64,000 nt of DNA. It comes from Bacilli bacterium (GTDB lineage Bacteria; Bacillota_I; Bacilli_A; RF39; UBA660). Positions 2,889 to 18,519 of this stretch are shown one piece after another. Position 1 is the first letter of the stretch. Each line of letters starts with the position of its first letter. Location: the NCBI GenBank assembly GCA_017527675.1, contig JAFXPU010000024.1, positions 62,001-126,000 on the forward strand. Reading direction: 5' to 3'. A model generated the notes under the pieces. That model ran no database searches and was not told the DNA's origin. It saw nothing but the letters and a program-made list of their open reading frames with translations. The translations under genes and the position numbers were made by a program.

Positions 2889-3959
2889 ATGTTTTTTAAA
2901 TCTATTCATAAACGTCTTAAAATAATTGGTATTATAATTACATTTTTATTTTTATTAATTATTTTTAAAGTATTTTATATTCAGTTTTTTTCTTATAAAA
3001 AATTAAATAAATTAGCTTCTAGTTTATGGAATAGAAATTTACCAATTGAAGCTAATAGAGGAAATATTTATGATAGAAATGGTAATGTTTTAGCAGGCAA
3101 TATTACAACTACATCTTTAGTTTTAATTCCAAATCAAATAAAGAATAAAGAATTAACTGCTCAAAAATTAGCTGAAATATTAAATGTATCATATGACGAA
3201 ATGCTAAAACATGTATCAAAGAAGACATCTATTGAACGTGTTCATCCTGAAGGTCGAAGATTATCTTATGAAGTTGCCGATCAAATAAAAGAATTAAATT
3301 TAGATGGTGTTTATTTAGTTAAAGAAGCTAAAAGAGACTATCCAAATCAAGAATTACTTGCTCACACATTAGGTTTTGTTGGTATTGATAATCAAGGTTT
3401 AGCTGGTCTAGAACTTATTTATGATAAATATCTTACAGGTTCAAATGGAGCTATTAAGTATTATGCTGATGCTAAAGGGAATAATTTAGCTTATGCATCT
3501 AAATATGTTAAACCACAAGATGGTATGAATATTACTCTAACAATTGATTTAGATATTCAAAAGTCCTTAGAAAGAGAATTAGATAATGCTATTACTAAAT
3601 ATAATCCTGATGGTGCTTGGGGAATAGTAATGGATCCTAATAATGGAGAAATTTTGGCAATGGCTTCACGTCCTTCTTTTAATCCAACTAATTATCAAGA
3701 ATATGATAAAGAAAGCATTAATAGAAATGTACCTATTTGGATGACCTATGAACCGGGTTCGACTTTTAAAATCATTACTCTTGCAGCTTCCTTAGAAGAA
3801 AAGACAATTGATTTAAATGATCATTTTTTTGATTCAGGTTCAATTAAAGTTGGAGGAGCAACATTGCATTGCTGGCGTCATGGTGGTCATGGCGAGGAAA
3901 CATATTTAGAAGTTGTTGAAAATTCTTGTAACCTAGGTATCAGGCGAGAGATACAATAA
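2889..3959 (+). CDS. SpoVD/FtsI-type penicillin-binding protein, 5' part, interrupted by the element
   Basis: This is the N-terminal part of a class B PBP, the septal or spore peptidoglycan transpeptidase. It has a membrane anchor at about residues 12-32 and the RGNIYDRNG dimerisation-domain motif at 57-65. The catalytic SxxK motif is STFK at 291-294 and the SxN motif is SCN at 346-348. True PBP sequence ends at Asn348. The last eight residues, up to the stop at 3957-3959, are read from the inserted element. The KTG box and the PASTA domain lie 13.7 kb away at 17659-18519. As it stands the product lacks the KTG motif and should not be an active transpeptidase. An AGGTG site precedes the ATG. 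Position near mraY and ftsW marks it as part of a division cluster. Confidence 0.9.
   Translation: MFFKSIHKRLKIIGIIITFLFLLIIFKVFYIQFFSYKKLNKLASSLWNRNLPIEANRGNIYDRNGNVLAGNITTTSLVLIPNQIKNKELTAQKLAEILNVSYDEMLKHVSKKTSIERVHPEGRRLSYEVADQIKELNLDGVYLVKEAKRDYPNQELLAHTLGFVGIDNQGLAGLELIYDKYLTGSNGAIKYYADAKGNNLAYASKYVKPQDGMNITLTIDLDIQKSLERELDNAITKYNPDGAWGIVMDPNNGEILAMASRPSFNPTNYQEYDKESINRNVPIWMTYEPGSTFKIITLAASLEEKTIDLNDHFFDSGSIKVGGATLHCWRHGGHGEETYLEVVENSCNLGIRREIQ
3930..3938 (+). other. Left attachment-site core (attL)
   Basis: AACCTAGGT is matched by AACCCAGGT at the right end, with one central mismatch. In the PBP frame the right copy gives Asn-Pro-Gly, which fits the family's usual SCNPGF. The left copy gives Asn-Leu-Gly. 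The chromosome therefore probably supplied AACCC and the crossover dinucleotide lies left of the mismatch, in AACC. This position is inference. Confidence 0.75.
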
Positions 3960-4198: not shown

Positions 4199-4749
4199 GC
4201 TCAATACTTAAAGAATTACAAGATTATCATTATTTGAAAATTAAAAAAGTAAGAGGTAGTAAAGGATATTTTGAATATAATTATTTGATTTATGAATTGC
4301 CAAATTGTATTAATCTTGAAAATGAGAGTTTCAATCCAGATAAGTTAAATCCATATCTGGATGGTCCAAATGTGGAAGTAGCTACCCAAATAAATACTAA
4401 TGTAATAAATACTAATAAACAAATAGATAAAGACGATAAAACAAAAATATCGCCTTTTTTTATGCCTGAGGAACATAATATTTTAACTTTGGAGTTAGTT
4501 AATAGGGGATATATAAATGAAAATGATGCTCAAATCTTTTATTATGACAGCCTATTTAAACAATTGTTAGAAGAGGGTAATACATATAAAGGTTTGTTAC
4601 AAATAATTCATTATATTATTCCAAGAGTGTTAAGTAGATATTTTAAAGATGAAGACAATAACTATATAACTAATAAATTTGGATATTTTAAAAGTTCAAT
4701 TATTAGCAATATTGATAGATTAAATATTGATATAGATGAATTATGGTAA
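4153..4749 (+). pseudogene. Fragment of a replication-type winged-helix protein
   Basis: An open frame without a proper start encodes ISSILKELQDYHYLK followed by a basic, aromatic strand region. This resembles the end of the winged-helix domain in phage or plasmid replication initiators (RepA_N or DnaD-like). The C-terminal part, from about 4486, is helical and lacks any motif I can name. The 5' end of the domain is missing. The region may be the remnant of the element's former replication module. The family assignment is tentative. Confidence 0.4.
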
Positions 4750-4788
4750 AAAAATGTCGGGAATATACCTAAAATGTGTTATAATTTT
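4747..4788 (+). repeat. 42-bp direct repeat, left copy (promoter-like)
   Basis: It matches 15194-15235 with a single mismatch (A4762 against T15209). It contains a TATAAT at 4780-4785. The right copy contains the perfect palindrome GGTATATACC, which looks like an operator. Here the promoter would read into a gene-free stretch and the 3' side of the tyrosine recombinase gene. Confidence 0.85.
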
Positions 4789-4876: not shown

Positions 4877-4903
4877 TTGACCATAATTAAGTTGACTATA
4901 ATT
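4877..4903 (+). repeat. Arm-type direct repeats, left pair
   Basis: Two copies of TTGACYATAATT lie 15 bases apart (4877-4888 and 4892-4903). The second copy is identical to 6018-6029. Pairs of short direct repeats near both core-type sites resemble the arm sites bound by the N-terminal domain of Tn916-type integrases. Confidence 0.5.
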
Positions 4904-5990
4904 TATTAATAAAACTTCTCTTGCTATTTATTGTTGGATGAACATAAATATTCATTGTTGTAGTTATATTTGAATGTCCTAATAATTCCATTAATGTTTT
5001 ATAATCGATACCTATATCGATACAATCAGTTGCAAATGTATGTCGCAAATCATGATAAGTGTAATTCAAATTTAATTGGTTTGTAAATCTTTTGTAATGA
5101 TTATAAAATGTTCGAGGATCCATAAACTTATTTTTACCTGTAAGTAAATAATTATCATCATTATAATTATTTTTTATTTTACATAAATCATTATATAATT
5201 TATCGGGAATTGGTAAAATTCTTATACTCTTTTCGGTTTTTGGTGTTGATAGTATTAATTTAGTTTTATTTCTTGTATTAAAAGATTTTACTCTTGATAC
5301 AATTCGGTTAATATATATTACTTTATTATTAATGTCTATATCCGAAATCCTTATTCCACAAACTTCTGATTCACGAATACCTAATAATAGAGATAACATT
5401 ATTCCTATAGTTATGGAGGAATCAGTTTTATTAAGACTTTTAACGAGTCGTTTTTTTTCATCAGCATATAAACTTTTACCTGTACCAATTTTTTTACTAA
5501 TTTTAATCATTTCAATTTTAATATTATTTTCATTAAATACTTGCTTTAATATATTACAAATATCATAAATAGTGTTTTTTGATAATCCACCAGATTTATC
5601 AAGCTTTCCACTATCAAGTTTTGACTGAAGATATTTATTTACAATTTCATCATTTAATTTGGATACTTTTACCATCCCAATATCATTTTTTATATGTTGA
5701 TTTATTAGATTAAAATAGCGTGTGTATGAAGATAACTTTATATTTTCTTTGCTCTCTAACCATTTAACGACAAGATCATTTAATGTTTTAATACCTTTAA
5801 TTCTTCTAGTTGTTTTAGGTTTTTCAATATGTAGATTACTCAAATATAAATTTCTTTTTTTCTTGCATTCACTATAAGTTCTACCATAGACATAACCATA
5901 AACTGCTTTTCCATCCTTATATTCTTTTATATATCTTCCTTCATATCTACCATCTTTTCTTTTAAAAATACTTTCTCCTTTTCGAGCCAT
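4896..5990 (-). CDS. Tyrosine recombinase (phage integrase family)
   Basis: A 364-residue enzyme with the usual three-part layout. A basic N-terminal arm-binding region (about 1-60) has GRYEGRYIKEYKDGK. A SAM-like core-binding domain spans about 70-170. The catalytic domain spans about 180-360. The catalytic residues are visible: Arg in LLLGIRESEVCG, HxxR in YHDLRHTFAT, His in LLGHSNITT and the nucleophile in MNIYVHP. I chose the ATG at 5990 because AAGGAGG lies 8 bases upstream; the longer GTG start falls inside that site. The gene lies between the two inverted core-type sites and diverges from the surface operon. It could be an inversion enzyme for that operon or the integrase of a nested element. 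Confidence 0.93.
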   Translation of the reverse strand: MARKGESIFKRKDGRYEGRYIKEYKDGKAVYGYVYGRTYSECKKKRNLYLSNLHIEKPKTTRRIKGIKTLNDLVVKWLESKENIKLSSYTRYFNLINQHIKNDIGMVKVSKLNDEIVNKYLQSKLDSGKLDKSGGLSKNTIYDICNILKQVFNENNIKIEMIKISKKIGTGKSLYADEKKRLVKSLNKTDSSITIGIMLSLLLGIRESEVCGIRISDIDINNKVIYINRIVSRVKSFNTRNKTKLILSTPKTEKSIRILPIPDKLYNDLCKIKNNYNDDNYLLTGKNKFMDPRTFYNHYKRFTNQLNLNYTYHDLRHTFATDCIDIGIDYKTLMELLGHSNITTTMNIYVHPTINSKRSFINKL

Positions 5991-6017
5991 AATTTTCACC
6001 TCCTTAGTATTAATTTT

Positions 6018-6283: not shown

Positions 6284-6871
6284 ATGAAAAAGAAGAAAGT
6301 TTTAGCAGTATTAGTAGCATTATTATTAGTAGTAGGTGCAGGAGTTTATACTTATGCAAGATATACATTCTCTAGAACTGGTAGAGGCGAAGTTTCAGTT
6401 GCTAAATGGGCTGTAGTTTTAAATCAAGATAGTACAGCAGTTAGTAATGACTTTAATTTAGCTTTAACTTTATCAGAAAATAATAATGTTATTAATGGTA
6501 AAATTGCACCAGATAGAAGTGCTACTGCAACATTAGAACTAGATTTAACTGGTACTGAAGTTGCTACTGATATTTCAGTTGACTTAAGTAGTGTAACTGG
6601 TCTTCCAACTGGAATGACTATCTCAGGTGTAACTGCAAATGGAACAGCAATGACAAATACTTCTGGAGTTTACTCTACAACTATTGGATTAAATGCTGGA
6701 AAAACTGCTATTTCATCTGACACTGTAACATTAGTTATTACTGCAACTTGGGATAACGCTAGTGATGCAAACAATGATAATGACACAGGATACGGAGATG
6801 GAACACTTGATGCAGATTGGACTTTACAAATTCCTGTAAAAGTTACTGCTCAACAACATATCGGAGCTTAA
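6284..6871 (+). CDS. TasA/camelysin-like secreted fibre protein
   Basis: A 195-residue protein with a lysine-rich start, one hydrophobic segment and a cleavage region ending ARYTFSRTG. This is typical of SipW-dependent signal peptides. The mature part is rich in Thr, Ser, Ala and Gly, with beta-strand patterns (GKIAPDRSATATLEL near residue 80) as in TasA and CalY proteins. GGAGG sits 7 bases before the ATG at 6284. It is the first gene of an operon with a SipW-type peptidase, so it is likely the main subunit of a surface fibre. It has Trp-Asp-Asn and Asp-rich runs near 160-180 that may bind metal. The family call comes from motif appearance, not alignment. Confidence 0.75.
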   Translation: MKKKKVLAVLVALLLVVGAGVYTYARYTFSRTGRGEVSVAKWAVVLNQDSTAVSNDFNLALTLSENNNVINGKIAPDRSATATLELDLTGTEVATDISVDLSSVTGLPTGMTISGVTANGTAMTNTSGVYSTTIGLNAGKTAISSDTVTLVITATWDNASDANNDNDTGYGDGTLDADWTLQIPVKVTAQQHIGA

Positions 6872-6964: not shown

Positions 6965-7711
6965 ATGGAAAAAAAAGAGGATAGACCTATCAATAAAATA
7001 TTACTTTTTATTGTGGTTATATTAATTATAGTAATTATATTACTTTTATTAAGAGGATGTAGTAAGAAAGATGAAGGAACAAACAATAAAGGTAATATAA
7101 ATGTATTTGAATTAAAATGTGATACAAATTGTGATTGCACGGATGACAAAAAAGACGATAACAAGAAAGAAGACAATCCTAACACTTCAGGTAATAATAA
7201 TTCAAATTCAAATAGCAGTACTAAAAAAGATAACACTAAAGAAGTATATAAAGAAGTTGATGATAATAATACTGGTGAAGAAAATGAAGTTACTATAGAA
7301 GTACTTGATAATGATAAAACATGGAAAGAAAATACTGATATAAAATTATTTGAAGATTCTGCTAATGTAGTAAAAGGAAAGATTGCACCTGAATCAAGTG
7401 GAACATATCAATTTGTCATTAAAAACTCTACATCATTCAATGTTAAATATAATATAGAATTTGATGAAACTAATGACTATAACATAAATATGAAGTACAA
7501 ATTAAAAAAGAATAATGACTATGTTATTTCTGATTGGGTTACTTATTCTTCTCTTAAACAAGAGGCGATTAGACTAAATTCTAAATCAAGTGATACTTAT
7601 TATTTAGAATGGAAATGGTTTGAAGGTTCAAATGATAACTCAATTGGAAGTAATCCAAGTTCTAAATATGGCTTATCAATTGATATAAGTGCGGTGCAGG
7701 TAAATGATTAA
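6965..7711 (+). CDS. Membrane-anchored camelysin-like protein with Asn-rich linker
   Basis: 248 residues. One membrane segment spans about 13-30 and is followed by RGCSKK and a Cys-rich patch (ELKCDTNCDCTDDKK). A low-complexity Asn/Ser/Lys/Asp linker spans about 60-110. The C-terminal domain, about 115-248, repeats features of the neighbouring TasA-like protein: VVKGKIAPESSGTYQF and a closing LSIDISAVQ strand. It may anchor the fibre to the membrane. The gene ends inside the start of the signal peptidase gene with an 8-base overlap. Confidence 0.65.
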   Translation: MEKKEDRPINKILLFIVVILIIVIILLLLRGCSKKDEGTNNKGNINVFELKCDTNCDCTDDKKDDNKKEDNPNTSGNNNSNSNSSTKKDNTKEVYKEVDDNNTGEENEVTIEVLDNDKTWKENTDIKLFEDSANVVKGKIAPESSGTYQFVIKNSTSFNVKYNIEFDETNDYNINMKYKLKKNNDYVISDWVTYSSLKQEAIRLNSKSSDTYYLEWKWFEGSNDNSIGSNPSSKYGLSIDISAVQVND

Positions 7712-8279
7712 AAAATTAAATAAAACCCCAATTAAAATAATTGTTGATATTTTAACCTATGCATTAATTGTAATAGTAGGTTTATATTTATTATTCTCAA
7801 TTTATAATAAATTTATTACAAAAGATAAAGTAGTGTTAATTGGAAAATATTACATTTTTCAAATAGCAACAGGAAGCATGGAACATGAATTAGTTCCTGG
7901 AGATTATATTGTAGTTGAAAAAACAAATGATTATAAAGTAGGAGATATAGTTACTTATTTAGAAGATGGATATTATATTACCCATAGAATAAATAAAATA
8001 GATGAAAATTCAATAACTACAAAGGGTGATGCAAATACTGCATTAGATAATCCAATTAGTAAAGATAAAATAATTGGAAAATACTTATTTAAAGAAAAAA
8101 TTTTAACTTTTTTAACAAAATATAAAGTTCTTGTTATCGCTATATTATTGGCTTTGATTATTTTAGAAAGTGCATTTAAAGAAGATAACAAGGCTGATGA
8201 TAAAAATAAAAGTAAAAAAGAAAAAAGTAAAGATGAAGAAATAGAAAAGATTATTGATGAGGATATGGAAATTATATAA
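7704..8279 (+). CDS. sipW: SipW-type signal peptidase I
   Basis: 191 residues of the SipW/ER-like signal peptidase class. An N-terminal membrane segment spans about 10-32. The catalytic Ser is in ATGSMEHELVPGDYIVVEK, the conserved strand is KVGDIVTYLE, and HRI carries the catalytic His that replaces the Lys of ordinary bacterial SPase I. The TKGDAN box is also present. A second membrane segment lies near 140-157, then a charged tail. SipW enzymes process TasA-type fibre proteins, and the genes on both sides carry SipW-like signals. It overlaps the preceding gene by 8 bases. Confidence 0.92.
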   Translation: MIKKLNKTPIKIIVDILTYALIVIVGLYLLFSIYNKFITKDKVVLIGKYYIFQIATGSMEHELVPGDYIVVEKTNDYKVGDIVTYLEDGYYITHRINKIDENSITTKGDANTALDNPISKDKIIGKYLFKEKILTFLTKYKVLVIAILLALIILESAFKEDNKADDKNKSKKEKSKDEEIEKIIDEDMEII

Positions 8280-8317
8280 ATAATTAGAAAAAGTAGTAAA
8301 GATGGGAAGTGATGAAA

Positions 8318-8872
8318 ATGAAAAAGTTTAATGCTAAAATAGTAATATTGGCTATTTTATTAGTTAGTTTTACTTTAGTTATTTTCGATGTCCCACAAAG
8401 TATAAGTAGATATGTATCTGGGAAAAATGGATCAAAAAATCTTGATGTTGCTAAATTTCAACCAAAATTAAATGGAAGTACAAATCTTTCTCAATCAATT
8501 GATTTAGCAGATACAATAACAACTAATAATTATTCTGATGACCTTGTGGCACCTGGAACAAATGGAGATATTGTATTAACTTTAGATTTTTCTGATGTTG
8601 ATGTATCTACTGATTATGTAATAAGTGTTGGTACAACTGATTTACCAACTAATTTGAGTTTATATTCTGATTCATCATACACAACGGCATTTTCAACAAT
8701 AAATGGAACATATACAATCGGAAGTTCTACAACACATACACAACATATTTATTGGAAATGGGATTATTTAACTGATTCAGCAAGTAATACAAATGATAAT
8801 CTCTATATGAATCATAATTTGTCAGTACCTGTTAATGTTACTGCATCACAGAAAGTAGGTGCAGGTAATTAA
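8318..8872 (+). CDS. SipW-dependent secreted protein, TasA-like
   Basis: A 184-residue protein with a hydrophobic segment at about 7-24 and the sequence SISRYVSGKNG at the expected cleavage region. The mature part is Thr/Ser/Asn/Asp-rich, with a Trp-Lys-Trp motif near 150 and a closing NLSVPVNVTASQKVGAG strand. That end closely parallels the end of the first operon gene. I chose the third ATG, 8 bases after GGGAAG. The stop overlaps the next ATG as TAATG. It is probably a minor fibre subunit. Confidence 0.7.
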   Translation: MKKFNAKIVILAILLVSFTLVIFDVPQSISRYVSGKNGSKNLDVAKFQPKLNGSTNLSQSIDLADTITTNNYSDDLVAPGTNGDIVLTLDFSDVDVSTDYVISVGTTDLPTNLSLYSDSSYTTAFSTINGTYTIGSSTTHTQHIYWKWDYLTDSASNTNDNLYMNHNLSVPVNVTASQKVGAGN

Positions 8873-9354
8873 TGAAAAAAATTAAAATATTTGTTTTAAG
8901 TTTTATTTTGGTAGCATTTGTATTTATAAGTTATATTCCAGATAAAACTTTTTCTAGGTATACAAAGAATGGTAGTGTTAATATAACTACTACCTCAGCT
9001 GATATGATATGTGATGCAACAATTGATAATCCAGGTACTTATATATCAAATGATGGATGGGCTTATTTTAAAGTTACTATTAAAAATTATAATACAAGCG
9101 GAGATATAACCGAAGTACCTATTCAATATAATCTAACTGTGTCAAATCAAACTGGTTCTTCTGCCGTATATAGATATTTGGATGCCTCTGGTAATTCAAA
9201 TAACTTTGAAAGCACTTTTACTACAAGAAATTATGCATTCACAACTGGAACTCAGCAAAGCCAAGTAATTAATGTTGAAGTAAAGACTGATTCAATGACA
9301 AGTGAAAATGTCGACTTTAAAGTAGACTTGAATTGCTTTCAGGTACAAAAGTAG
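8872..9354 (+). CDS. Small secreted protein with SipW-type signal
   Basis: 160 residues. A signal-anchor segment spans about 5-21, then FSRYTKNGS. A beta-rich mature domain has Cys near residues 46 and 155, which could form one disulfide. It resembles the other operon products at the signal but has a different core. It starts inside the stop of the preceding gene, so translation is coupled. It may be a pilin-like or assembly subunit. The exact role is unknown. Confidence 0.6.
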   Translation: MKKIKIFVLSFILVAFVFISYIPDKTFSRYTKNGSVNITTTSADMICDATIDNPGTYISNDGWAYFKVTIKNYNTSGDITEVPIQYNLTVSNQTGSSAVYRYLDASGNSNNFESTFTTRNYAFTTGTQQSQVINVEVKTDSMTSENVDFKVDLNCFQVQK

Positions 9355-9365
9355 GGGTGATTTAA

Positions 9366-11519
9366 ATGAAAAAGAAAAAGAAAATTTTAATTCTCGTTAT
9401 AATGTTAAGTTTATTATCACTTACTGCTATAACTACATATTCAAGATATGCAAAGACAGTTACTAAAACTGGAACTATTGCAACTGCTGATGTTGGATAT
9501 TGCCAAATTAATGGAATAACATCTTTTAAGGAATGTCTGATAAGAAATGATAGTCAACAATCACTTTCTTTAGCTTTAAATACAATTGATACAAGAACCA
9601 GTTTACTTAATTTGAATAACATAGAACCAGTTAATGCTTATGTTCCTAAAACAACATATACTAATGTAACAAACAAAACAAATACAACTGCTATGACTTA
9701 TACTAATGCTAATAGATTTACATATGTTGTTGAAAATAAATTAATTACTGAATTTGATGTTGATGATGCAGATATAACTAAAATAACATTTAATCCAACA
9801 ACTGGTTATTATACATATACAGGTTCTACAACAGGTAGTATGAATGACCTTATAACTACTGCTACTGACATGGAGAATGGTATATATAAATATACTTGTT
9901 TAAATACAACTACAAATGGTAATTGTACTTCTTTATTCTTGTTTACTGAAGAACCATATTTAATATCAGGCTATTATAGATTTAAACAAGGTTATACTTA
10001 TTCATTTACGGTTACTGGTACATCTACTTCTAATGCAGGTCTTTATAAAGGAGAAGACGATTATACAGTTGACTCAAATACATATACATATTTTTATCGT
10101 GGAGATGTAAATAATAACTGGGTTAAATTCGGTAATTATTTATGGAGAGTTGTTAGAATAAATGGTGATGGTTCAATAAGAATGATTTACTCTGGTCTTG
10201 CTAGTGGTTCTAGTCATACTGGAAGTAATGCTCAAATTAAAACTTCTGCATATGGAGATACTCAGTCATTTACTGCAACAACTACTGATTTATATGATTC
10301 AAGTCAAACTATTACAACGACTTATTCAAATGGTAGATATGGAAATACAAATGTTGGTTATATGTATAATCCTGCTAAAATAATTAGTGTTTATCCAAAT
10401 AAAACACCTGATAATACAACAGTTAATAGATTAAATTATTTTCCAACTTTTATAAACATATCAAATACAACTAACTATTATTTCTTCAAAAATTTTGATC
10501 CAAGTACAGATTGTTTTACAGGAAGTGATTCTGATGAGTCTGGTGCATGTACATTAAAATGTAGAAGCAAAGGAAATGATGGAGATAGTGGTATAGATTG
10601 CATTCAAAGTAATTGGAATACACTTGCTACTACATCAGGTAATTATAGTGATTCTGCTGCAGGTATTTATCCAGCATCAAATCCATCTCAATACATTTAT
10701 ACAAGTGATTATAAATATACTTGTTGGAGTTATGGAACTCCTGTTACAAAATCCAATGGAGATGGAACAACAAGTGTTTATATAACTTGTCCAGTTGTAT
10801 CTGAAATAGTTGGTACAGTAAAAAATCAACCTACTCAAGCTAAAGTAAAATATCATGGACTATTTTCAGCAGATGCAACAACTGCAAATACAAATGTAAA
10901 AGATAGTAAGATTAAATCTGAGGTTGATTCGTGGTATGCAACAAATATATTAAATGCTAATGATGGAAATGGAAATGCTTTAGAAGATTATTTATCTGAT
11001 GAAATATTCTGCAATGATAGATCCTCAACAAGTACAGATTTCCCATTAGTTAATGGTGGTTCTTATTTATATGGTCCATATAGTAGAAATACTGCTGCAA
11101 ATAGAGTTCCAAGTTTTCGATGTCCAAATAAGAGTAATGATGCATTTACTTTAAAAACTTCAGGAGGAGTAAGTAGTGTAACTGCAAGTGGAGATGGTAA
11201 TAATAAACTTACTTATCCAGTTGGTTTAATTACAATAGATGAAGCAGCTTATGCAGGTGGTAAAAATGGTTCTATGAACTATAAATATTACCTTTATACT
11301 GGGGCTTATTACTGGACAATGTCGCCGTCTCACTTCAATTCGAATCCTGCGAACGCGATCGTCTGGATCGTCCATTCCGCTGGCAACCTGTCTAATACTA
11401 ATTCGGCGACTGCGTACGGTGTCCGCCCAGTTGTCAATCTGAACTCTGATGTTCTGTATTCTGGTGGAACTGGAACGGAGTCGGATCCATATATAATTAC
11501 ACTACCTAATGGATCGTGA
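9366..11519 (+). CDS. DGR variable protein: large secreted protein with C-terminal C-type-lectin-like domain
   Basis: 717 residues. A SipW-type signal ends near TYSRYAKT (about residue 30). A Thr/Asn-rich region of about 200 residues follows. Then comes a long domain starting near WVKFGNYLWRVVRINGDGS (about 245) and ending GVRPVVNL, the closing strand of the formylglycine-generating-enzyme or C-type-lectin fold used by DGR targets. Residues 652-688 are encoded by the variable repeat. Eleven codons there differ from the template, and all are amino acid changes. The last 30 residues (GGTGTESDPYIITLPNG) complete the fold. Its place at the end of a SipW/TasA operon suggests display on the fibre as a binding tip. 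Confidence 0.93.
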   Translation: MKKKKKILILVIMLSLLSLTAITTYSRYAKTVTKTGTIATADVGYCQINGITSFKECLIRNDSQQSLSLALNTIDTRTSLLNLNNIEPVNAYVPKTTYTNVTNKTNTTAMTYTNANRFTYVVENKLITEFDVDDADITKITFNPTTGYYTYTGSTTGSMNDLITTATDMENGIYKYTCLNTTTNGNCTSLFLFTEEPYLISGYYRFKQGYTYSFTVTGTSTSNAGLYKGEDDYTVDSNTYTYFYRGDVNNNWVKFGNYLWRVVRINGDGSIRMIYSGLASGSSHTGSNAQIKTSAYGDTQSFTATTTDLYDSSQTITTTYSNGRYGNTNVGYMYNPAKIISVYPNKTPDNTTVNRLNYFPTFINISNTTNYYFFKNFDPSTDCFTGSDSDESGACTLKCRSKGNDGDSGIDCIQSNWNTLATTSGNYSDSAAGIYPASNPSQYIYTSDYKYTCWSYGTPVTKSNGDGTTSVYITCPVVSEIVGTVKNQPTQAKVKYHGLFSADATTANTNVKDSKIKSEVDSWYATNILNANDGNGNALEDYLSDEIFCNDRSSTSTDFPLVNGGSYLYGPYSRNTAANRVPSFRCPNKSNDAFTLKTSGGVSSVTASGDGNNKLTYPVGLITIDEAAYAGGKNGSMNYKYYLYTGAYYWTMSPSHFNSNPANAIVWIVHSAGNLSNTNSATAYGVRPVVNLNSDVLYSGGTGTESDPYIITLPNGS
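11320..11430 (+). repeat. DGR variable repeat (VR)
   Basis: 111 bp within the 3' end of the 717-residue gene, aligned without gaps to 11622-11732. The two differ at 13 positions. At each of them the template has A and this copy has C, T or G. No other base differs. It ends in the GC-rich stretch GTGTCCGCCCAG, the place where the initiation-of-homing sequence is expected. Confidence 0.97.
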
Positions 11520-11523
11520 TAAT

Positions 11524-11553
11524 CGTGTGGTAATGACTCTTCATTACCACACG
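11524..11553 (+). promoter_or_regulatory. Perfect 13-bp hairpin downstream of the VR
   Basis: CGTGTGGTAATGA pairs with TCATTACCACACG around the 4-base loop CTCT, five bases after the target-gene stop. There is no T-run, so it is a weak terminator candidate. In the Bordetella phage DGR a hairpin or cruciform just downstream of VR is needed for retrohoming. This one lies 93 bases from the VR end and may have the same role. Confidence 0.6.
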
Positions 11554-11621
11554 CAAAATTAATTTTGGGATATATAAGATATATATCTTGGTTGATCTGA
11601 TATAAATTGCAGTGTGCCGTG

Positions 11622-11732
11622 TGTCGCCGTATAACTTCAATTCGAATAATGCGAACGCGAACGTCTGGAACGTCAATTCCACTGGCAACCTGAATAATAA
11701 TAATTCGGCGAATGCGAACGGTGTCCGCCCAG
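11622..11732 (+). repeat. DGR template repeat (TR)
   Basis: 111 bp, same orientation as VR. Read in the target frame it is rich in AAY codons at the variable positions, and one further A-containing codon, TAT, is changed too. AAY codons let adenine mutagenesis reach many amino acids without stops. About 33 of 111 bases are A and 13 of these are changed in the present VR. It is GC-rich compared with the DNA around it. Confidence 0.97.
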
Positions 11733-11951
11733 ATTCCTACTACAAATTAGTAATATAGTACTAACTAACCGAGATTTATAGGGCTAAGGCTCGTAAACAG
11801 AGGAAGTAATAATACTTTTAGCAGGTATTATGGTCTATAGATTGATAGATTGGAAACAAGATTGACCATGAAATAATTTTATTTCTAAATATATAATACT
11901 AGACGAAGTTAGACAATAAAGAAATATTTTTTAACTTCTATTGCTGTATTG

Positions 11952-11985
11952 AGCAGGAGAAGAAATTCTCCTGCTATATTTTTGT
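11952..11985 (+). terminator. Hairpin with GAAA tetraloop at the end of the template RNA
   Basis: AGCAGGAGAA pairs perfectly with TTCTCCTGCT around GAAA and is followed by ATATTTTTG. It could end the template RNA or limit read-through into the accessory genes, whose ribosome-binding site follows directly. Confidence 0.7.
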
Positions 11986-11998
11986 AAAGGAGGAGATT

Positions 11999-12400
11999 AT
12001 GAAAGAAAAATATGAAATACAAAAAAATGAAAATTTGCAAAGTATTATATTAATTAAATCTGGTAATTTCTATGCCACGATTAATGATGATTCATTTATT
12101 ATGAAGAAATTATTTAACTATCAAATTATCAAAGGGAAGGTGGGATTTCCATTAAATGCTATTGATAAAGTTAAAAGTAGGTTGAATGATTTAAGGGTAA
12201 ATTATCTAATCTATAATAGTGAAGATGATATTGATAAACAAGTATTTGATGATAACACCTACAATGCAATATTAAATGAATATAAAAAGCAAGAATATAA
12301 AGATAATATGAAAAAATTATTGTTTGATAGAATAGAGTACTTGATAAATGATAATTCAGATAATTATGATAAGATAAGGAAGTTTGTGGATGAACTCTAA
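11999..12400 (+). CDS. MutS domain I-like DGR accessory protein (MSL-type)
   Basis: 133 residues. The first 80 follow the pattern of the mismatch-recognition domain I of MutS: IKSGNFYATINDDSF matches the GxFYexFxxDA segment. VGFPLNAIDKVKSRLNDL matches the GVPxxxxxxyxxxL segment. The Glu of the MutS Phe-x-Glu motif is replaced by Ala, so base-mismatch reading as in MutS is unlikely to be intact. The C-terminal 50 residues are charged and helical. Small MutS-like genes are known near some DGR reverse transcriptases. It has a strong AAAGGAGG site and overlaps the next gene by 11 bases. Confidence 0.72.
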   Translation: MKEKYEIQKNENLQSIILIKSGNFYATINDDSFIMKKLFNYQIIKGKVGFPLNAIDKVKSRLNDLRVNYLIYNSEDDIDKQVFDDNTYNAILNEYKKQEYKDNMKKLLFDRIEYLINDNSDNYDKIRKFVDEL

Positions 12401-12740
12401 TTTTTTCTTACTAAATAAATGTTATCAAACAATAGAATATTATAATAAAAGACTTATTAATTATCCAAAGCGTGAAATGTTATTAAAGCAAAATATTGAA
12501 AAGACTTATTATGAAATGATAGAGTGCTTATTTTCTTTTAATATAAATAATAGTGAAAGAATTAAACAAAAATATTTAAAGGATTTTTTAGTTAAAGTAT
12601 CTATGCTTGATTTTTATACAAGAATTAGTAATTTAAAAAAAGTTATTAGTAAAAGACAGTTTGAAGTCATTGGAAATAGAATTACTGAACTTCGTAAAAT
12701 GGCTTATGGATTAATCAAAAATGAAAAAGTCGAGGATTAA
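12390..12740 (+). CDS. avd: Avd-type DGR accessory protein (four-helix bundle)
   Basis: 116 residues, all helical by pattern and basic, the size of the Bordetella Avd. The C-terminal helix reads ITELRKMAYGLIKN, similar to the RxxxxGW-type end of four-helix Avd proteins. Avd forms a pentameric barrel that binds the reverse transcriptase and the template RNA. The ATG at 12390 follows AAGGAAG at good spacing. It lies between the MutS-like gene (11-base overlap) and the reverse transcriptase (20-base overlap). This is the expected place for avd. Confidence 0.82.
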   Translation: MNSNFFLLNKCYQTIEYYNKRLINYPKREMLLKQNIEKTYYEMIECLFSFNINNSERIKQKYLKDFLVKVSMLDFYTRISNLKKVISKRQFEVIGNRITELRKMAYGLIKNEKVED

Positions 12741-13854
12741 CTTATTCAATTATGATAATTTATTAGATATTTATAAATTACTAGATATCTATAATAGAAT
12801 TAAAAGTAATTGTAAGCATAAAGATAAAATATTTAAGTTTGAAATGTTTCAATCATCCTATATAACTGAAGTGCTTGGTGTATTAAGAAGTAGGAAATAT
12901 AACCATGGTAAATATAACATTTTTATAATATTAGAACCAAAAAGTAGAATAATAATGAGTGAAAATATGGGAGATAAAATAATTAATCACTTATTAAGTC
13001 ATTATGTTTTGTTTCCATTAATCGAACCTATGTTAATTGATGCTAATGTGGCAACTAGAACTGATAAGGGAACAAAAGCGGGTATTTATTACATGAAAAA
13101 GTATATTAATTCAATGAAACAAAAACATAATAAATTTTATGTCTTGAAATGTGATGTATCAAAATTTTTTTATCAAATAGACCATGAAATATTATTAGAA
13201 AAATTGAAAGGTATCATAGTAGATGAAGATATATATAATTTAACTGAAGAAATTATAAATAGTACAAATTATTCATATTTAGGAGAAACTATAAAAGATT
13301 TGATTTCAAAAAGAAAAGAATATATTAGTAAGTTAAAAATATCGGAAAATGAAAAAAAGCTAAAATATGAAGAGTTAGATAGAATACCTCTATATGATTT
13401 TAATAAAGGATTACCGATTGGAAATATGTCCTCACAAATATTTGCAATTTTTTATTTAAATGACTTGGATCATTATATAAAAGAAAAACTGAAAATAAAG
13501 TGTTACATAAGGTATATGGATGATCTAATTTTAATACATGAAGATAAAGAGTATTTAAAATATTGTTTAGAAGAAATTGATAAGAAAATTGAAGAAGTTA
13601 GATTATCATTAAATTCTAAAACACAAATAACCGAAATACATGATGGTGTTAGTTTTTTAGGATATAAATTTATTTTAAAAAATAATAGATTAAATATGCT
13701 AATTAGTTCTAAGGCTAAAAGAAGGATGAATAGAAAACTAAAAACAATAAAAAGAAAAGAGAGAACGGAGTTCTTAAGAAGAAGATATAATGGTTATTTA
13801 GCTTATGGAGATACTAGAGGATTTATGCATAGTAAATCTTGGAAAAAATTTTAG
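12721..13854 (+). CDS. DGR reverse transcriptase
   Basis: 377 residues. Motif A is VLKCDVSKFFYQIDHEIL. The group-specific box GLPIGNMSSQIFAIFYLNDLD has the GLPIGNxxSQ form of DGR enzymes. The catalytic YMDD box is IRYMDDLILI. The thumb-side segment GVSFLGYKFILKNNRLN is also present. There is no maturase or endonuclease domain, as is normal for DGR enzymes. It copies the template RNA with adenine misincorporation and feeds the cDNA into the variable repeat. It starts within the end of avd without a clear ribosome-binding site, so translation is probably coupled. Confidence 0.97.
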   Translation: MKKSRINLFNYDNLLDIYKLLDIYNRIKSNCKHKDKIFKFEMFQSSYITEVLGVLRSRKYNHGKYNIFIILEPKSRIIMSENMGDKIINHLLSHYVLFPLIEPMLIDANVATRTDKGTKAGIYYMKKYINSMKQKHNKFYVLKCDVSKFFYQIDHEILLEKLKGIIVDEDIYNLTEEIINSTNYSYLGETIKDLISKRKEYISKLKISENEKKLKYEELDRIPLYDFNKGLPIGNMSSQIFAIFYLNDLDHYIKEKLKIKCYIRYMDDLILIHEDKEYLKYCLEEIDKKIEEVRLSLNSKTQITEIHDGVSFLGYKFILKNNRLNMLISSKAKRRMNRKLKTIKRKERTEFLRRRYNGYLAYGDTRGFMHSKSWKKF

Positions 13855-13956: not shown

Positions 13957-13979
13957 AAAGACTTAATTAATAAGTCTTT
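13957..13979 (-). terminator. Terminator of the first HTH regulator gene
   Basis: A 9-bp stem (AAAGACTTA with TAAGTCTTT) is followed on the minus strand by seven T. It overlaps the regulator stop codon. Confidence 0.75.
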
Positions 13980-14403
13980 ATGAAAGTAACGTATCAGCGG
14001 AAATATTATACTTGTTACATAATTGTAATAAGAAAGAAGTTTGTATTAATGTAATTCCATTTTCATATTCGGAAATGACTGATTGTGTGCATTGTAAGAA
14101 ATCAGCAATTTCTTCTTGTGATTCATTATTTTTAATACGTAGTTTCTTAAGTTTGTTACCAATTAATTGGCTATCAATCTTTAATTTGTTATTTGTTATT
14201 GATCTGTCATTATTTAAACCTAAAACGTAATCTAAAGAACGATTAGATAAATTACATAAATCTACTAAATGCGTTAAGGGAATAATTTTTTCACCAGTTT
14301 CCCATCTTGCATAAGTAGACTTAGAAATTTGTAATTCTTCCGCCAGTTCACGTTGTGACAGATTAAGCATTTCTCTAATGAGAGTTATTCTTTCATTTAT
14401 CAT
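13978..14403 (-). CDS. Tandem-HTH XRE-family regulator 1
   Basis: 141 residues with two XRE-type helix-turn-helix domains. The first (about 1-58) has LSQRELAEELQISKSTYARWE. The second (about 75-138) has ESQEEIADFLQCTQSVISEYE. Two HTH domains in one chain could bind an inverted repeat as a single protein. AGGTGG precedes the ATG at 14403. It is paralogous to the protein at 14697-15149. A copy of the TTTGCCCCACA repeat lies 50 bases upstream, which suggests autoregulation. It is probably the element's repressor for surface or DGR genes, by inference. Confidence 0.8.
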   Translation of the reverse strand: MINERITLIREMLNLSQRELAEELQISKSTYARWETGEKIIPLTHLVDLCNLSNRSLDYVLGLNNDRSITNNKLKIDSQLIGNKLKKLRIKNNESQEEIADFLQCTQSVISEYENGITLIQTSFLLQLCNKYNISADTLLS

Positions 14404-14451
14404 ATATTCCACCTAATTATATTATCTCAAAAAAACAAGTTTTTTTGTCTA

Positions 14452-14696: not shown

Positions 14697-15149
14697 TTAT
14701 TTTATCTTTGGATTAGTTTCAATCTTTCCACAGAGCCAATCCATTGATACGTTATAGTGCTTTGCAAATTCAACTAAAGGATAAGTACGAATTATAATTT
14801 TTCCATGTTCATACTTTGAATAATTAGATTGATCTACATTTATTGCGTTTGCTACGGCATTCTGAGTATCATTATTATTAATTCTAACTTCACGCATTCT
14901 TTCACCAATTTGTGTTAGATTAATTTCATTTTTCATATTCTTATAATTTGTAACTTCAGATATATCACATATATAATCTAAACTTATATTAAAGTGGTTA
15001 CAAAATTCATTTAATTTTTGAATAGATATTGGGTCAATTCCATTTTCCCAACCTGCATAGTTGGATCGACTTGTTTTTAAAATATCTGCCATTTGTTTTT
15101 GAGTAATTAAATAGTATGTTCTAATTTCCTTCATTTTTTCATATATCAT
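14697..15149 (-). CDS. Tandem-HTH XRE-family regulator 2
   Basis: 150 residues with two XRE HTH domains: ITQKQMADILKTSRSNYAGWE near residue 15 and DTQNAVANAINVDQSNYSKYE near residue 90. The layout is the same as in regulator 1, so the pair arose by duplication or repeated acquisition. The ATG at 15149 follows GAGGTG. The gene diverges from the promoter and palindromic operator at 15194-15235, which leads to the recombinase operon. It is therefore a good candidate repressor of excision and integration. Confidence 0.8.
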   Translation of the reverse strand: MIYEKMKEIRTYYLITQKQMADILKTSRSNYAGWENGIDPISIQKLNEFCNHFNISLDYICDISEVTNYKNMKNEINLTQIGERMREVRINNNDTQNAVANAINVDQSNYSKYEHGKIIIRTYPLVEFAKHYNVSMDWLCGKIETNPKIK

Positions 15150-15193
15150 GGTACACCTCACTAATATAATTTTCTCAAAAAATCTATAAATAT

Positions 15194-15235
15194 TAAAAAA
15201 ATGTCGGGTATATACCTAAAATGTGTTATAATTTT
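15194..15235 (+). repeat. 42-bp direct repeat, right copy: promoter of the recombinase operon
   Basis: It is a near-identical copy of 4747-4788. It contains the perfect palindrome GGTATATACC (15207-15216) and TATAAT at 15227-15232. There is no good -35 box, so it may depend on an activator. It is divergent from regulator 2, a classic position for an operator. Confidence 0.8.
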
Positions 15236-15917: not shown

Positions 15918-17675
15918 ATGAATATAATAAAAGTTAGGCAAGAACTAGCAATGGGTAAAAACATATATGATATGCCATTACGAGTTGTTGATTATGGTAG
16001 AGTATCTACTGATAAAGATGAACAATTAAACTCATTAACTAATCAAGCTAATTATTTTAATGATATGATAGATGGAATAAAGAATTGGAATCATGTTGGA
16101 TCTTATGCAGATGAAGGTATAAGTGGAACACAGGTATATAAAAGAGAAGATTTTTTAAGAATGATAGAAGATGCAAGACTTGGTAAGTTTGATATGATTG
16201 TTACAAAAGAAATATCTAGATTTGCTCGTAATACTATTGATAGTATTAAATATACTCAATTACTTTTAAGTTATGGAGTAATAGTATTTTTTATATCAGA
16301 TAATATTAATACCATAAATCCAGATAGCGAATTTAGATTAACATTAATGGCAAGTATGGCACAAGATGAAGTAAGAAAACTTTCTGAAAGAGTTAAGTTT
16401 GGTATTAGAAGAAGTATAAAAGATGGAAAACTTGGCGGTGGCAATCTTTATGGTTATAACAAAAAAGATTGTGTATTAACTATAAATGAAGATGAAGCAA
16501 AAGTTGTAAAAAAGATATTTGAACTTTATGCATCAGGAGAATATGGATTTACTAAAATTGGAGAAATGTTAGCAAATGAAGGACATTATACTAGAGCAGG
16601 TAAAGTATTTAGTATGCCAACATTAAAGAAAATGATAAGAAATCCAAGATATAAAGGTTGGTTTACTGCTAATTTAAGTGAAGTGGAAGATTATAAAACG
16701 CATAAAAAAATAAATAAACCAAGAGAAGAATGGATTATGTATAAAGATGAAAGTGGTAGAGTTCCTGCAATAATAGATGAAGAATTGTGGGATAAAGCAA
16801 ATCAAGTTCATAATGAACGAATGAGTAAGTGGAACAAAAATGTTTTAAATAAAGAGTTTTATTTAGAAAATAGAAACTATACATCAAAGATATTTTGTAT
16901 GGAACATAATACAACTTTTATTCGTTCGGCATCTTGTAAAAGAAAAGAAAATCCAGTATGGCAATGTAATGAATTTTTAAGACATGGTATTAAAGGTTGT
17001 GCTACTCCAAGATTATTTGAAAAACACCTTGATGAAATATTTGCAACAATGCTTGAAAAAATAGTAGATAACCGTGATGAAATATTAAATAGTATAACTA
17101 ATGATTATGTTAGTTTAATTAAAGAAAGTAATAATAGTTATGATGTAGATAATTTAAAAGCAAAATTAAGAGAACAACAAACATTAAAAGATAGACTATT
17201 AGATATGTCATTAAGAAATATGATTAATGATAATGAATTTATGGAAAAGAATAAATCTATAAGTGATGAGATAGCATCATTAAATAAACAAATATTAGTA
17301 ATAGAAAGTAATAAAGAATCAACTGCATATTATGATAAAATAGTTGAACAAATAAGAAATGAATTAAAACCTAAATTAGATATAAGAAAGAATATTGGAA
17401 AATATTTTAATCTATTTATAGATAAAGTTTTTGTAAGTAAGATAGATAATGATAGAAAACATATTAAATTACAAATGATTTTTAACTTTAAAAGAGAAGA
17501 TGAAGAAATAGAAATTCACCAAAGGAACAATTCTAATGGAACAGGATCGGATAATTCAAAAAATGAAAAAACCCTTATAAATCAAAGAGATTACAATGTT
17601 AGAGTATCGTTTGATACTAATTATTTACGACAAAAGTATCTCTTGCTTAATGCCCAGCAACCCAGGTTTTGTTAA
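15918..17675 (+). CDS. Large serine recombinase (site-specific integrase/excisionase)
   Basis: 585 residues. The resolvase domain has the catalytic Ser30 in YGRVSTDKDEQ and the Arg-rich KEISRFARNT segment. The recombinase domain follows at about 170-270 (GGGNLYGYNKK to RNPRYKGWF). A zinc ribbon at about 325-365 uses Cys residues in KIFCMEH, ASCKRKE, WQCNE and KGCATP. A long coiled coil spans about 395-455. This is the expected architecture for integrases of this class. The reading frame runs through the right att core and stops 8 bases inside PBP sequence. The last residues (RFC) are therefore encoded by the host gene. In the circular form the frame would continue for about 87 more residues. 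Confidence 0.96.
   Translation: MNIIKVRQELAMGKNIYDMPLRVVDYGRVSTDKDEQLNSLTNQANYFNDMIDGIKNWNHVGSYADEGISGTQVYKREDFLRMIEDARLGKFDMIVTKEISRFARNTIDSIKYTQLLLSYGVIVFFISDNINTINPDSEFRLTLMASMAQDEVRKLSERVKFGIRRSIKDGKLGGGNLYGYNKKDCVLTINEDEAKVVKKIFELYASGEYGFTKIGEMLANEGHYTRAGKVFSMPTLKKMIRNPRYKGWFTANLSEVEDYKTHKKINKPREEWIMYKDESGRVPAIIDEELWDKANQVHNERMSKWNKNVLNKEFYLENRNYTSKIFCMEHNTTFIRSASCKRKENPVWQCNEFLRHGIKGCATPRLFEKHLDEIFATMLEKIVDNRDEILNSITNDYVSLIKESNNSYDVDNLKAKLREQQTLKDRLLDMSLRNMINDNEFMEKNKSISDEIASLNKQILVIESNKESTAYYDKIVEQIRNELKPKLDIRKNIGKYFNLFIDKVFVSKIDNDRKHIKLQMIFNFKREDEEIEIHQRNNSNGTGSDNSKNEKTLINQRDYNVRVSFDTNYLRQKYLLLNAQQPRFC
17659..17667 (+). other. Right attachment-site core (attR)
   Basis: AACCCAGGT is the partner of 3930-3938. 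PBP coding sequence resumes here in the frame that continues the 5' part. The recombinase frame also crosses the site, in a different register. Confidence 0.75.
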
Positions 17676-18519
17676 TATGGGTTTAAAATTAGGGAAAGAA
17701 ACTTTATTTAAATATATTGATAATTTTGGTTTTGGTCATAAGACCGGCGTTGAATTAAATGGCGAAGAAAATGGTATTATATTTGATATTAATAAAATAG
17801 GGGATTTAGAACTAGCTACAACGGCTTTTGGTCAAGGTGTATCTGTTACTCCAATACAGCAAATAACAGCTGTATCAGCAGCTATTAATGGGGGAATATT
17901 ATATCAACCGCATATTGTTAAAAGTATTAATGAACCAGAATTAAATAATGTAATATTAGATACGGAAATAAAAAAAATAAGACAAGTTATTAGCCCAGAA
18001 ACGAGTAAGCAAGTTAGATATGTTTTAGAAAGTGTTGTTGCTAAAGGTACAGGTCATAATGCCTATATTCCTAACTATCGGGTTGGTGGTAAGACAGGTA
18101 CTGCTCAAAAGGTTAATAATGGTGCTTATATGACTGGTAATTATATAACTTCTTTTATTGGTTTTATGCCAGCTGATGATCCTAAAATAGTTGTTTATAT
18201 TGCTGTTGATAATGCTAAAGGAGTAACTCAATATGGTGGAACTATAGCTGCTCCTATTGCTAAAAATGTTTTACTCGATTCTATAAATATTTTAAATATT
18301 GAACCAAGAGATAATGAAATAGAAAAAGAATATGTTTATTTAGATAAAGTTTATAGTGATATACCTAATGTTATTGGTATGAATTATGATGAAGCTAAAA
18401 ATAGTTTAAAAAATTTTAAAGTATTAAAAATTGGAGAGGGAACTGTTAAATATCAGAGTCCTAAAGCAGGTATTAAAATTGAAACTGGAACCGAAGTAAG
18501 GCTTTTTTTATCAAGTTAA
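17659..18519 (+). CDS. SpoVD/FtsI-type penicillin-binding protein, 3' part
   Basis: It encodes the rest of the transpeptidase domain from Asn348 on, with the KTG motif in VGGKTGTAQKVN. A single PASTA domain follows at the C-terminus (IPNVIGMNYDEAKNSL to GTEVRLFL). PASTA domains bind peptidoglycan and are found in SpoVD and Pbp2x-type proteins. An in-frame ATG lies 9 bases ahead, but there is no ribosome-binding site. A separate product is thus unlikely while the element is in place. Joined to 2889-3929 it gives 633 residues, close to the normal family length. Confidence 0.92.
   Translation, partial: NPGFVNMGLKLGKETLFKYIDNFGFGHKTGVELNGEENGIIFDINKIGDLELATTAFGQGVSVTPIQQITAVSAAINGGILYQPHIVKSINEPELNNVILDTEIKKIRQVISPETSKQVRYVLESVVAKGTGHNAYIPNYRVGGKTGTAQKVNNGAYMTGNYITSFIGFMPADDPKIVVYIAVDNAKGVTQYGGTIAAPIAKNVLLDSINILNIEPRDNEIEKEYVYLDKVYSDIPNVIGMNYDEAKNSLKNFKVLKIGEGTVKYQSPKAGIKIETGTEVRLFLSS

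Follow-up and report, generated by a model that had tools for sequence, protein, structure and literature searches.

A complete diversity-generating retroelement with a covarying template RNA in a nested mobile setting of a Bacilli genome

Does this Bacilli genome carry a diversity-generating retroelement (DGR) with all of its parts, which protein would the element vary, and how did it come to lie where it does? We examined a 64,000-nt window, the whole stretch of DNA analysed here, from the metagenome-assembled genome (MAG) of the Bacilli bacterium GCA_017527675.1 (contig JAFXPU010000024.1, 62,001-126,000; whole assembly 1.13 Mb). An initial annotation had proposed a complete DGR, and we found every part present and intact: a reverse transcriptase (RT), the accessory proteins Avd and MSL, a template repeat (TR), a variable repeat (VR) and a target-site hairpin. 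We rate the DGR of the window as complete and, judging from its sequence, probably functional. For comparison we used related genomes (G-numbers) and loci within them (L-numbers). Positions are those of the window, and features lie on the + strand unless stated otherwise.

Repeat pair and retroelement genes

The VR (11320..11430) and the TR (11622..11732) align over 111 bp without gaps and are 88% identical. All 13 mismatches fall at adenines of the TR, which has 33 A among its 111 positions, and none of the non-A positions has changed (0/78; hypergeometric P = 1.9e-8). Read from TR to VR, the changes are A to C (8), A to T (4) and A to G (1). They hit 11 codons of the target gene, each non-synonymously. 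Our re-alignment and recomputed codons thus return the coordinates, the 13 differences, the template adenine at every one of them and the 11 altered codons given by the initial annotation. Its claim of past mutagenic retrohoming is likewise supported, because the differences are adenine-only. The TR codons at the variable sites are mostly Asn (AAY), as is usual for DGRs. Both repeats also differ in composition from the surrounding genome region (48-56% G+C against 26%), and a raised G+C content of the TR and VR relative to their surroundings is seen in relatives too. Searching the 1.13-Mb assembly returned exactly two full copies of the repeat, the VR and the TR, plus one 25-nt chance match; no further VR was found in this genome. 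The base pair just past the repeats differs as well (A11733 after the TR, T11431 after the VR), and the same difference between the initiation of mutagenic homing (IMH) site and its IMH* counterpart recurs in most relatives examined. Both an IMH boundary and a target hairpin are present at the window DGR.

Which proteins would act on these repeats? The initial annotation had listed an Avd gene, a MutS-like gene and an RT gene, in that order. All three genes are present, and open reading frames (ORFs) and profiles correct the order to MSL (11999..12400), Avd (12390..12740, with an alternative TTG start at 12384) and RT (12721..13854). We assigned the class of the RT by bit scores against solved structures together with its motifs. 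Its closest solved structure is the Bordetella phage DGR RT (8ub7), at 112 bits in a single-sequence search and 142 bits with a profile, compared with profile scores of 67 bits for a group II intron RT and 58 bits for a retron RT. The YMDD motif of the earlier claim is there, accompanied by IGNMSSQ, which fits the DGR-type IGxxxSQ ([ILV]GxxxSQ). Close RTs occur in 81 of the 291 genomes of the family, and the named relatives are uncultured gut Bacilli/Tenericutes MAGs and Candidatus Onthousia, with viral relatives more distant.

Avd was recognised with three profile libraries (bAvd 3e-9, DivGenRetAVD 1e-11, and phrog_3206, 'Avd protein of DGR', 2e-13), at scores below some curated cut-offs; a single-sequence search of the PDB with Avd gave no useful match. 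MSL is a bare, stand-alone MutS domain I: Pfam MutS_I was found in 12/12 homologues scanned, and all 26 of 26 PDB profile matches are MutS/MSH proteins. Among 40 related RT loci, Avd lies near the RT in 34 and MSL in 29. The mismatch wedge of MutS is its F-x-E motif. Its Phe is invariant in 58/58 MSL homologues and the Glu position varies, a combination that yields a concrete mechanistic prediction. Since the host genome encodes a full-length MutS, a role for MSL against mismatch repair is possible. In a reconstituted BPP-1 system, deleting mutS left an insertion reporter unaffected (PMC12875486). MSL (PF01624) has been reported as a DGR accessory before, according to a passage in PMC10053308 that cites an earlier survey.

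Template RNA and target-site hairpin

Directly 3' of the TR lies a structured RNA (11734..11950), a spacer of about 217 nt that carries motifs common to relatives (fold z -5.3 for 11733-11990). An intrinsic-terminator-like hairpin, identified by terminator analysis (11952..11975), closes the TR transcript. A five-helix structure drawn from 7 sequences has a covariation score of 0.50, against 0.185 when shuffled and at most 0.16 in slid controls. The covariance model matches the window RNA at 150 bits and finds this RNA directly after the TR in many relatives, some of them outside the set from which the model was built. In an alignment of 28 model matches, itself fitted to the covariance model, the score is 0.563 against 0.164 shuffled, and 27/29 pairs have changes on both sides. 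The RNA stays 3' of the TR even in L037, where the TR is downstream of the RT. An Rfam search with the template RNA gave no match. In BPP-1, the spacer 3' of the TR folds and recruits RT-Avd (PMC12875486); because that spacer plays this part, we read the window RNA as the likely RT-Avd binding scaffold, and 11734-11950 is most likely the equivalent of the BPP-1 template-RNA scaffold.

A second structure lies at the target site. Directly 3' of the target stop codon, a hairpin (11524..11553) with a 13-bp stem and the loop CTCT forms a candidate IMH hairpin or cruciform (DNA fold z -5.9). Counting the window, 8 loci of the closest clade have the hairpin about 80-120 bp past the VR, with the loop CTCT or CTCC. 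Across its central 10 bp, 80/80 cells pair and 6 pairs have changed on both sides, a stem conservation to be read with the caveat that candidates in relatives were initially picked by complementarity. None of the pairs is G-U, and for that reason the pattern fits selection on the hairpin as DNA rather than as RNA. The BPP-1 hairpin/cruciform is likewise free in stem sequence and constrained in loop sequence (PMC3240598). Together, the RNA scaffold and the hairpin offer testable, RT-independent markers of DGR templates and targets.

Target protein, mobile setting and rival explanations

The DGR target is a protein of 717 aa (9366..11519) with a SipW-like N-terminal signal region, proposed from operon context and the N-terminal pattern, and a DUF6273-like C-terminus (E 5e-4, under the gathering score) in which the VR sits. 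A C-type-lectin-like fold of this tip may be expected from the literature on DUF6273, where gut phages provide examples of DGR targets with that fold (PMC10743442, PMC11792537). The target closes a gene cluster that also encodes a signal peptidase of the SipW/archaeal type and small secreted proteins resembling TasA/camelysin. Ahead of it lie a TasA/camelysin-like secreted protein (6287..6871), which gave no profile match and whose homologues stand beside an integrase and SipW in L204 and L205; a membrane-anchored protein (6965..7711) conserved in the fibre cluster; and the signal peptidase I (7704..8279), which at 78.8 bits is above the TIGR02228 cut-off and at 40 bits below that of the SipW model. 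Two small secreted proteins complete the cluster, one at 8309..8872 and one just 5' of the target (8872..9354), a homologue of which adjoins an integrase and a target-like gene in L201. Our literature search found no report combining TasA, camelysin or SipW with a DGR.

Is the variable tip tied to this kind of fibre? In L075, the target is 58% identical to the window target across the last 509 residues, and its N-terminus is type-IV-pilin-like instead. A type IV pilin methylation motif stands at the start of DGR targets at ten related loci, L075 among them. Because the L075 target shares the module and has a pilin-like N-terminus, the sequences point to a single variable receptor module mounted on different surface proteins. 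This would show gut Bacilli with genomes of about 1 Mb placing a hypervariable receptor tip on two unrelated types of surface protein, SipW/TasA-like and type-IV-pilin-like, and carrying a unit of this kind about on integrative elements.

The fibre cluster, target and DGR lie together in an inner element of 10.4 kb between 42-bp direct repeats (4747..4788 and 15194..15235, 41/42 identical), which are putative attachment (att) sites. This element also encodes a tyrosine integrase (4896..5999, - strand; Phage_integrase 2e-25) and two Xre-type regulators on the - strand (13978..14412, by profile; 14697..15161, an ORF that aligns with Xre-type loci in relatives). It is nested within an outer insertion of 13.7 kb with an AACC core and, at its right end, a large serine recombinase (15918..17675; Resolvase 6e-28, Recombinase 4e-21). 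By junction comparison, the outer insertion splits a penicillin-binding-protein gene into a 5' part running up to the AACC core of the left junction (2889..3933) and a 3' part starting at the core of the right junction (17659..18519). Uninterrupted copies of the gene in relatives display the empty site, and recombinases 65-68% identical occupy the same site in other genomes. The outer element thus has the recombinase, the att core and the intact empty sites in relatives of a serine-recombinase element. At seven further loci in several genomes of the family, the same gene is interrupted by serine-recombinase elements at several positions within it.

None of 40 related RT loci has a window-type integrase or recombinase nearby. 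The location on an integrated element is for this reason a property of the window copy and not of the clade, and linkage of the DGR to mobile elements is not general. Separately, tyrosine integrases related to that of the window stand beside SipW/TasA-like fibre genes at three loci, L204, L205 and L201; a target-like gene is present at L201 as well. Such integrase-linked fibre clusters are possibly a family of mobile surface-fibre islands.

How might these parts work together? We propose that the DGR is carried as cargo of the integrated element of about 10.4 kb and that RT and Avd would bind a short RNA consisting of the TR, the structured 3' scaffold of about 217 nt and its own terminator. 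After priming, the RT would copy the TR RNA into cDNA with errors opposite adenines, and the cDNA would replace the VR, with the IMH boundary and the hairpin past the target stop codon marking where. MSL, as a bare mismatch-recognition domain, probably binds the mismatched joint between cDNA and VR and aids or shields integration. The product would be a surface protein with a DUF6273 (C-type-lectin-like) tip at its C-terminus, variable at 11 codons in this copy. Fibres of the SipW/TasA-like kind would present it, and the tip most likely serves in adhesion or receptor binding. We hold this account as a whole to be very probably correct. Several points weigh against it: the SipW-type signal families of NCBIfam give no match to the target, an AlphaFold model of the target C-terminus built with 8 sequences is poor (pLDDT 32), an empty site for the inner element was not found, and ongoing diversification of the VR is proposed from one MAG with a single VR and TR.

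This last point bears on a different explanation, in which the DGR is intact in sequence yet dormant and the VR is a record of old retrohoming. That only one VR and one TR are known, from a single MAG, speaks for it, but all ORFs are open, the IMH hairpin is perfect, the RNA scaffold is intact and the VR has accumulated zero non-A drift from the TR. Dormancy is unlikely in our view, and still a serious possibility. Far harder to sustain is a prophage origin, in which a phage DGR would vary a tail-fibre protein. The integrase and Xre genes close by would suit a prophage, as would the DUF6273 targets known from gut phages (PMC10743442, PMC11792537). However, ORF review and profile libraries recognised no virion genes among the ORFs of the element, no phage structural genes lie between its ends, and the neighbours are the signal peptidase and TasA-like secreted proteins. 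Moreover, identity of the RT is 45-55% with chromosomal Bacilli loci, yet does not exceed 37% with viral contigs and is near 30% with named phages. That the RT belongs to a retron, a group II intron or a defence system and the repeats are a coincidental duplication is scarcely credible: generic RT models match as well, but among solved structures a DGR RT is far ahead of the rest, IGNMSSQ is present, the operon includes Avd and MSL, mismatches are A-only (P 2e-8) and the same arrangement recurs in dozens of relatives.

Multi-template relatives and known systems

Related loci hold TR/VR pairs with the same adenine bias; because our scan had selected A-biased pairs, the pooled bias is not independent evidence. 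Using the RNA covariance model together with the TR/VR pattern, for which a reversed-pattern control returned 0, we found genomes with several templates. These genomes are MAGs, so their arrangements are to be taken as provisional. G199 combines a single RT with four TR-RNA units in tandem, at least 2 further units and seven VRs. Its TR4, TR1 and TR3 match different VRs with A-biased differences (13A/1, 15A/7 and 5A/1, respectively). The four tandem units of this genome, mutually different, lie upstream of a single Avd-RT in L034 (384-1793), with other loci at L359 and L371. In G196, five DGR-type RTs occur in one genome of about 1 Mb.

G102 has one RT, 25 dispersed TR-type units, about 22 of them with the RNA by the model, and more than 20 longer DUF6273-type ORFs. 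Its templates are divergent, and some TR units are convergent and just downstream of a target gene. Among the loci examined, a single TR unit has a clearly A-biased VR partner; because this is the one clear pairing found, we do not claim an active 25-template network. In G040 we counted 39 VR-type sequences along with several TR-RNA units, and just one of the 39 is inside a full-length target with a hairpin. The other 38 are cassettes of about 200 nt, beside T-tracts and scattered across many contigs. Their 5' end is constant, 62 nt ahead of the core, and their 3' ends are ragged. They look like stored copies of the VR region, and this 91% complete MAG yielded no RT. We suggest, with somewhat less than even confidence, that in this clade the TR and its structured RNA form a unit separable from the RT, that one RT serves many chromosomal templates, and that the VR copies of G040 are a silent store of dozens of scattered cassettes, from which recombination could feed sequence back. 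Searches that look for repeats around the RT, as a large survey did in 2021 (PMC8144416), would overlook the dispersed templates of these relatives.

How does the window DGR compare with known systems? DGRs of this kind are already known, the MSL accessory included. The covarying template RNA and hairpin of the clade are new, and so are the targets on surface fibres and pilins, the placement within nested mobile elements, and the relatives with several templates. With the DGR of Bordetella phage BPP-1 (mtd, avd, brt) it shares the RT, Avd, an adenine-mutagenised TR/VR pair, a hairpin after the VR and RNA 3' of the TR (PMC3240598, PMC12875486). Unlike BPP-1, it is not phage-borne, its TR precedes the accessory genes and has a terminator of its own, it has the additional MSL, and its target is a surface protein. 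The hairpin also departs from the phage consensus (PMC3240598), with 13 bp, CTCT and about 93 bp from the VR, compared with 4-34 bp, GRNA and 7-10 bp in phages. MSL is common to this locus and to the MSL-bearing DGRs mentioned in the passage of PMC10053308, whereas here it occurs together with Avd, with the added detail of an invariant wedge Phe and a non-conserved Glu. The VR is within the DUF6273 domain, as in the targets of gut phages (tentaclins; Faecalibacterium prophages; PMC10743442, PMC11792537), but here the target is a cellular secreted protein of a SipW/TasA-like operon, and in relatives the domain is also found on type-IV-pilin-like proteins. Finally, the in-trans multi-locus DGRs of Thiohalocapsa PB-PSB1 and the crAss-like phages Lera/ct1yV3, which have several TRs, likewise combine several loci or TRs per genome, with some loci lacking their own RT or TR (PMC10907252, PMC12386605). 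By contrast, the relatives described here carry as many as about 25 TR-plus-RNA units in one genome, in tandem or dispersed, and the RNA itself makes these units recognisable.

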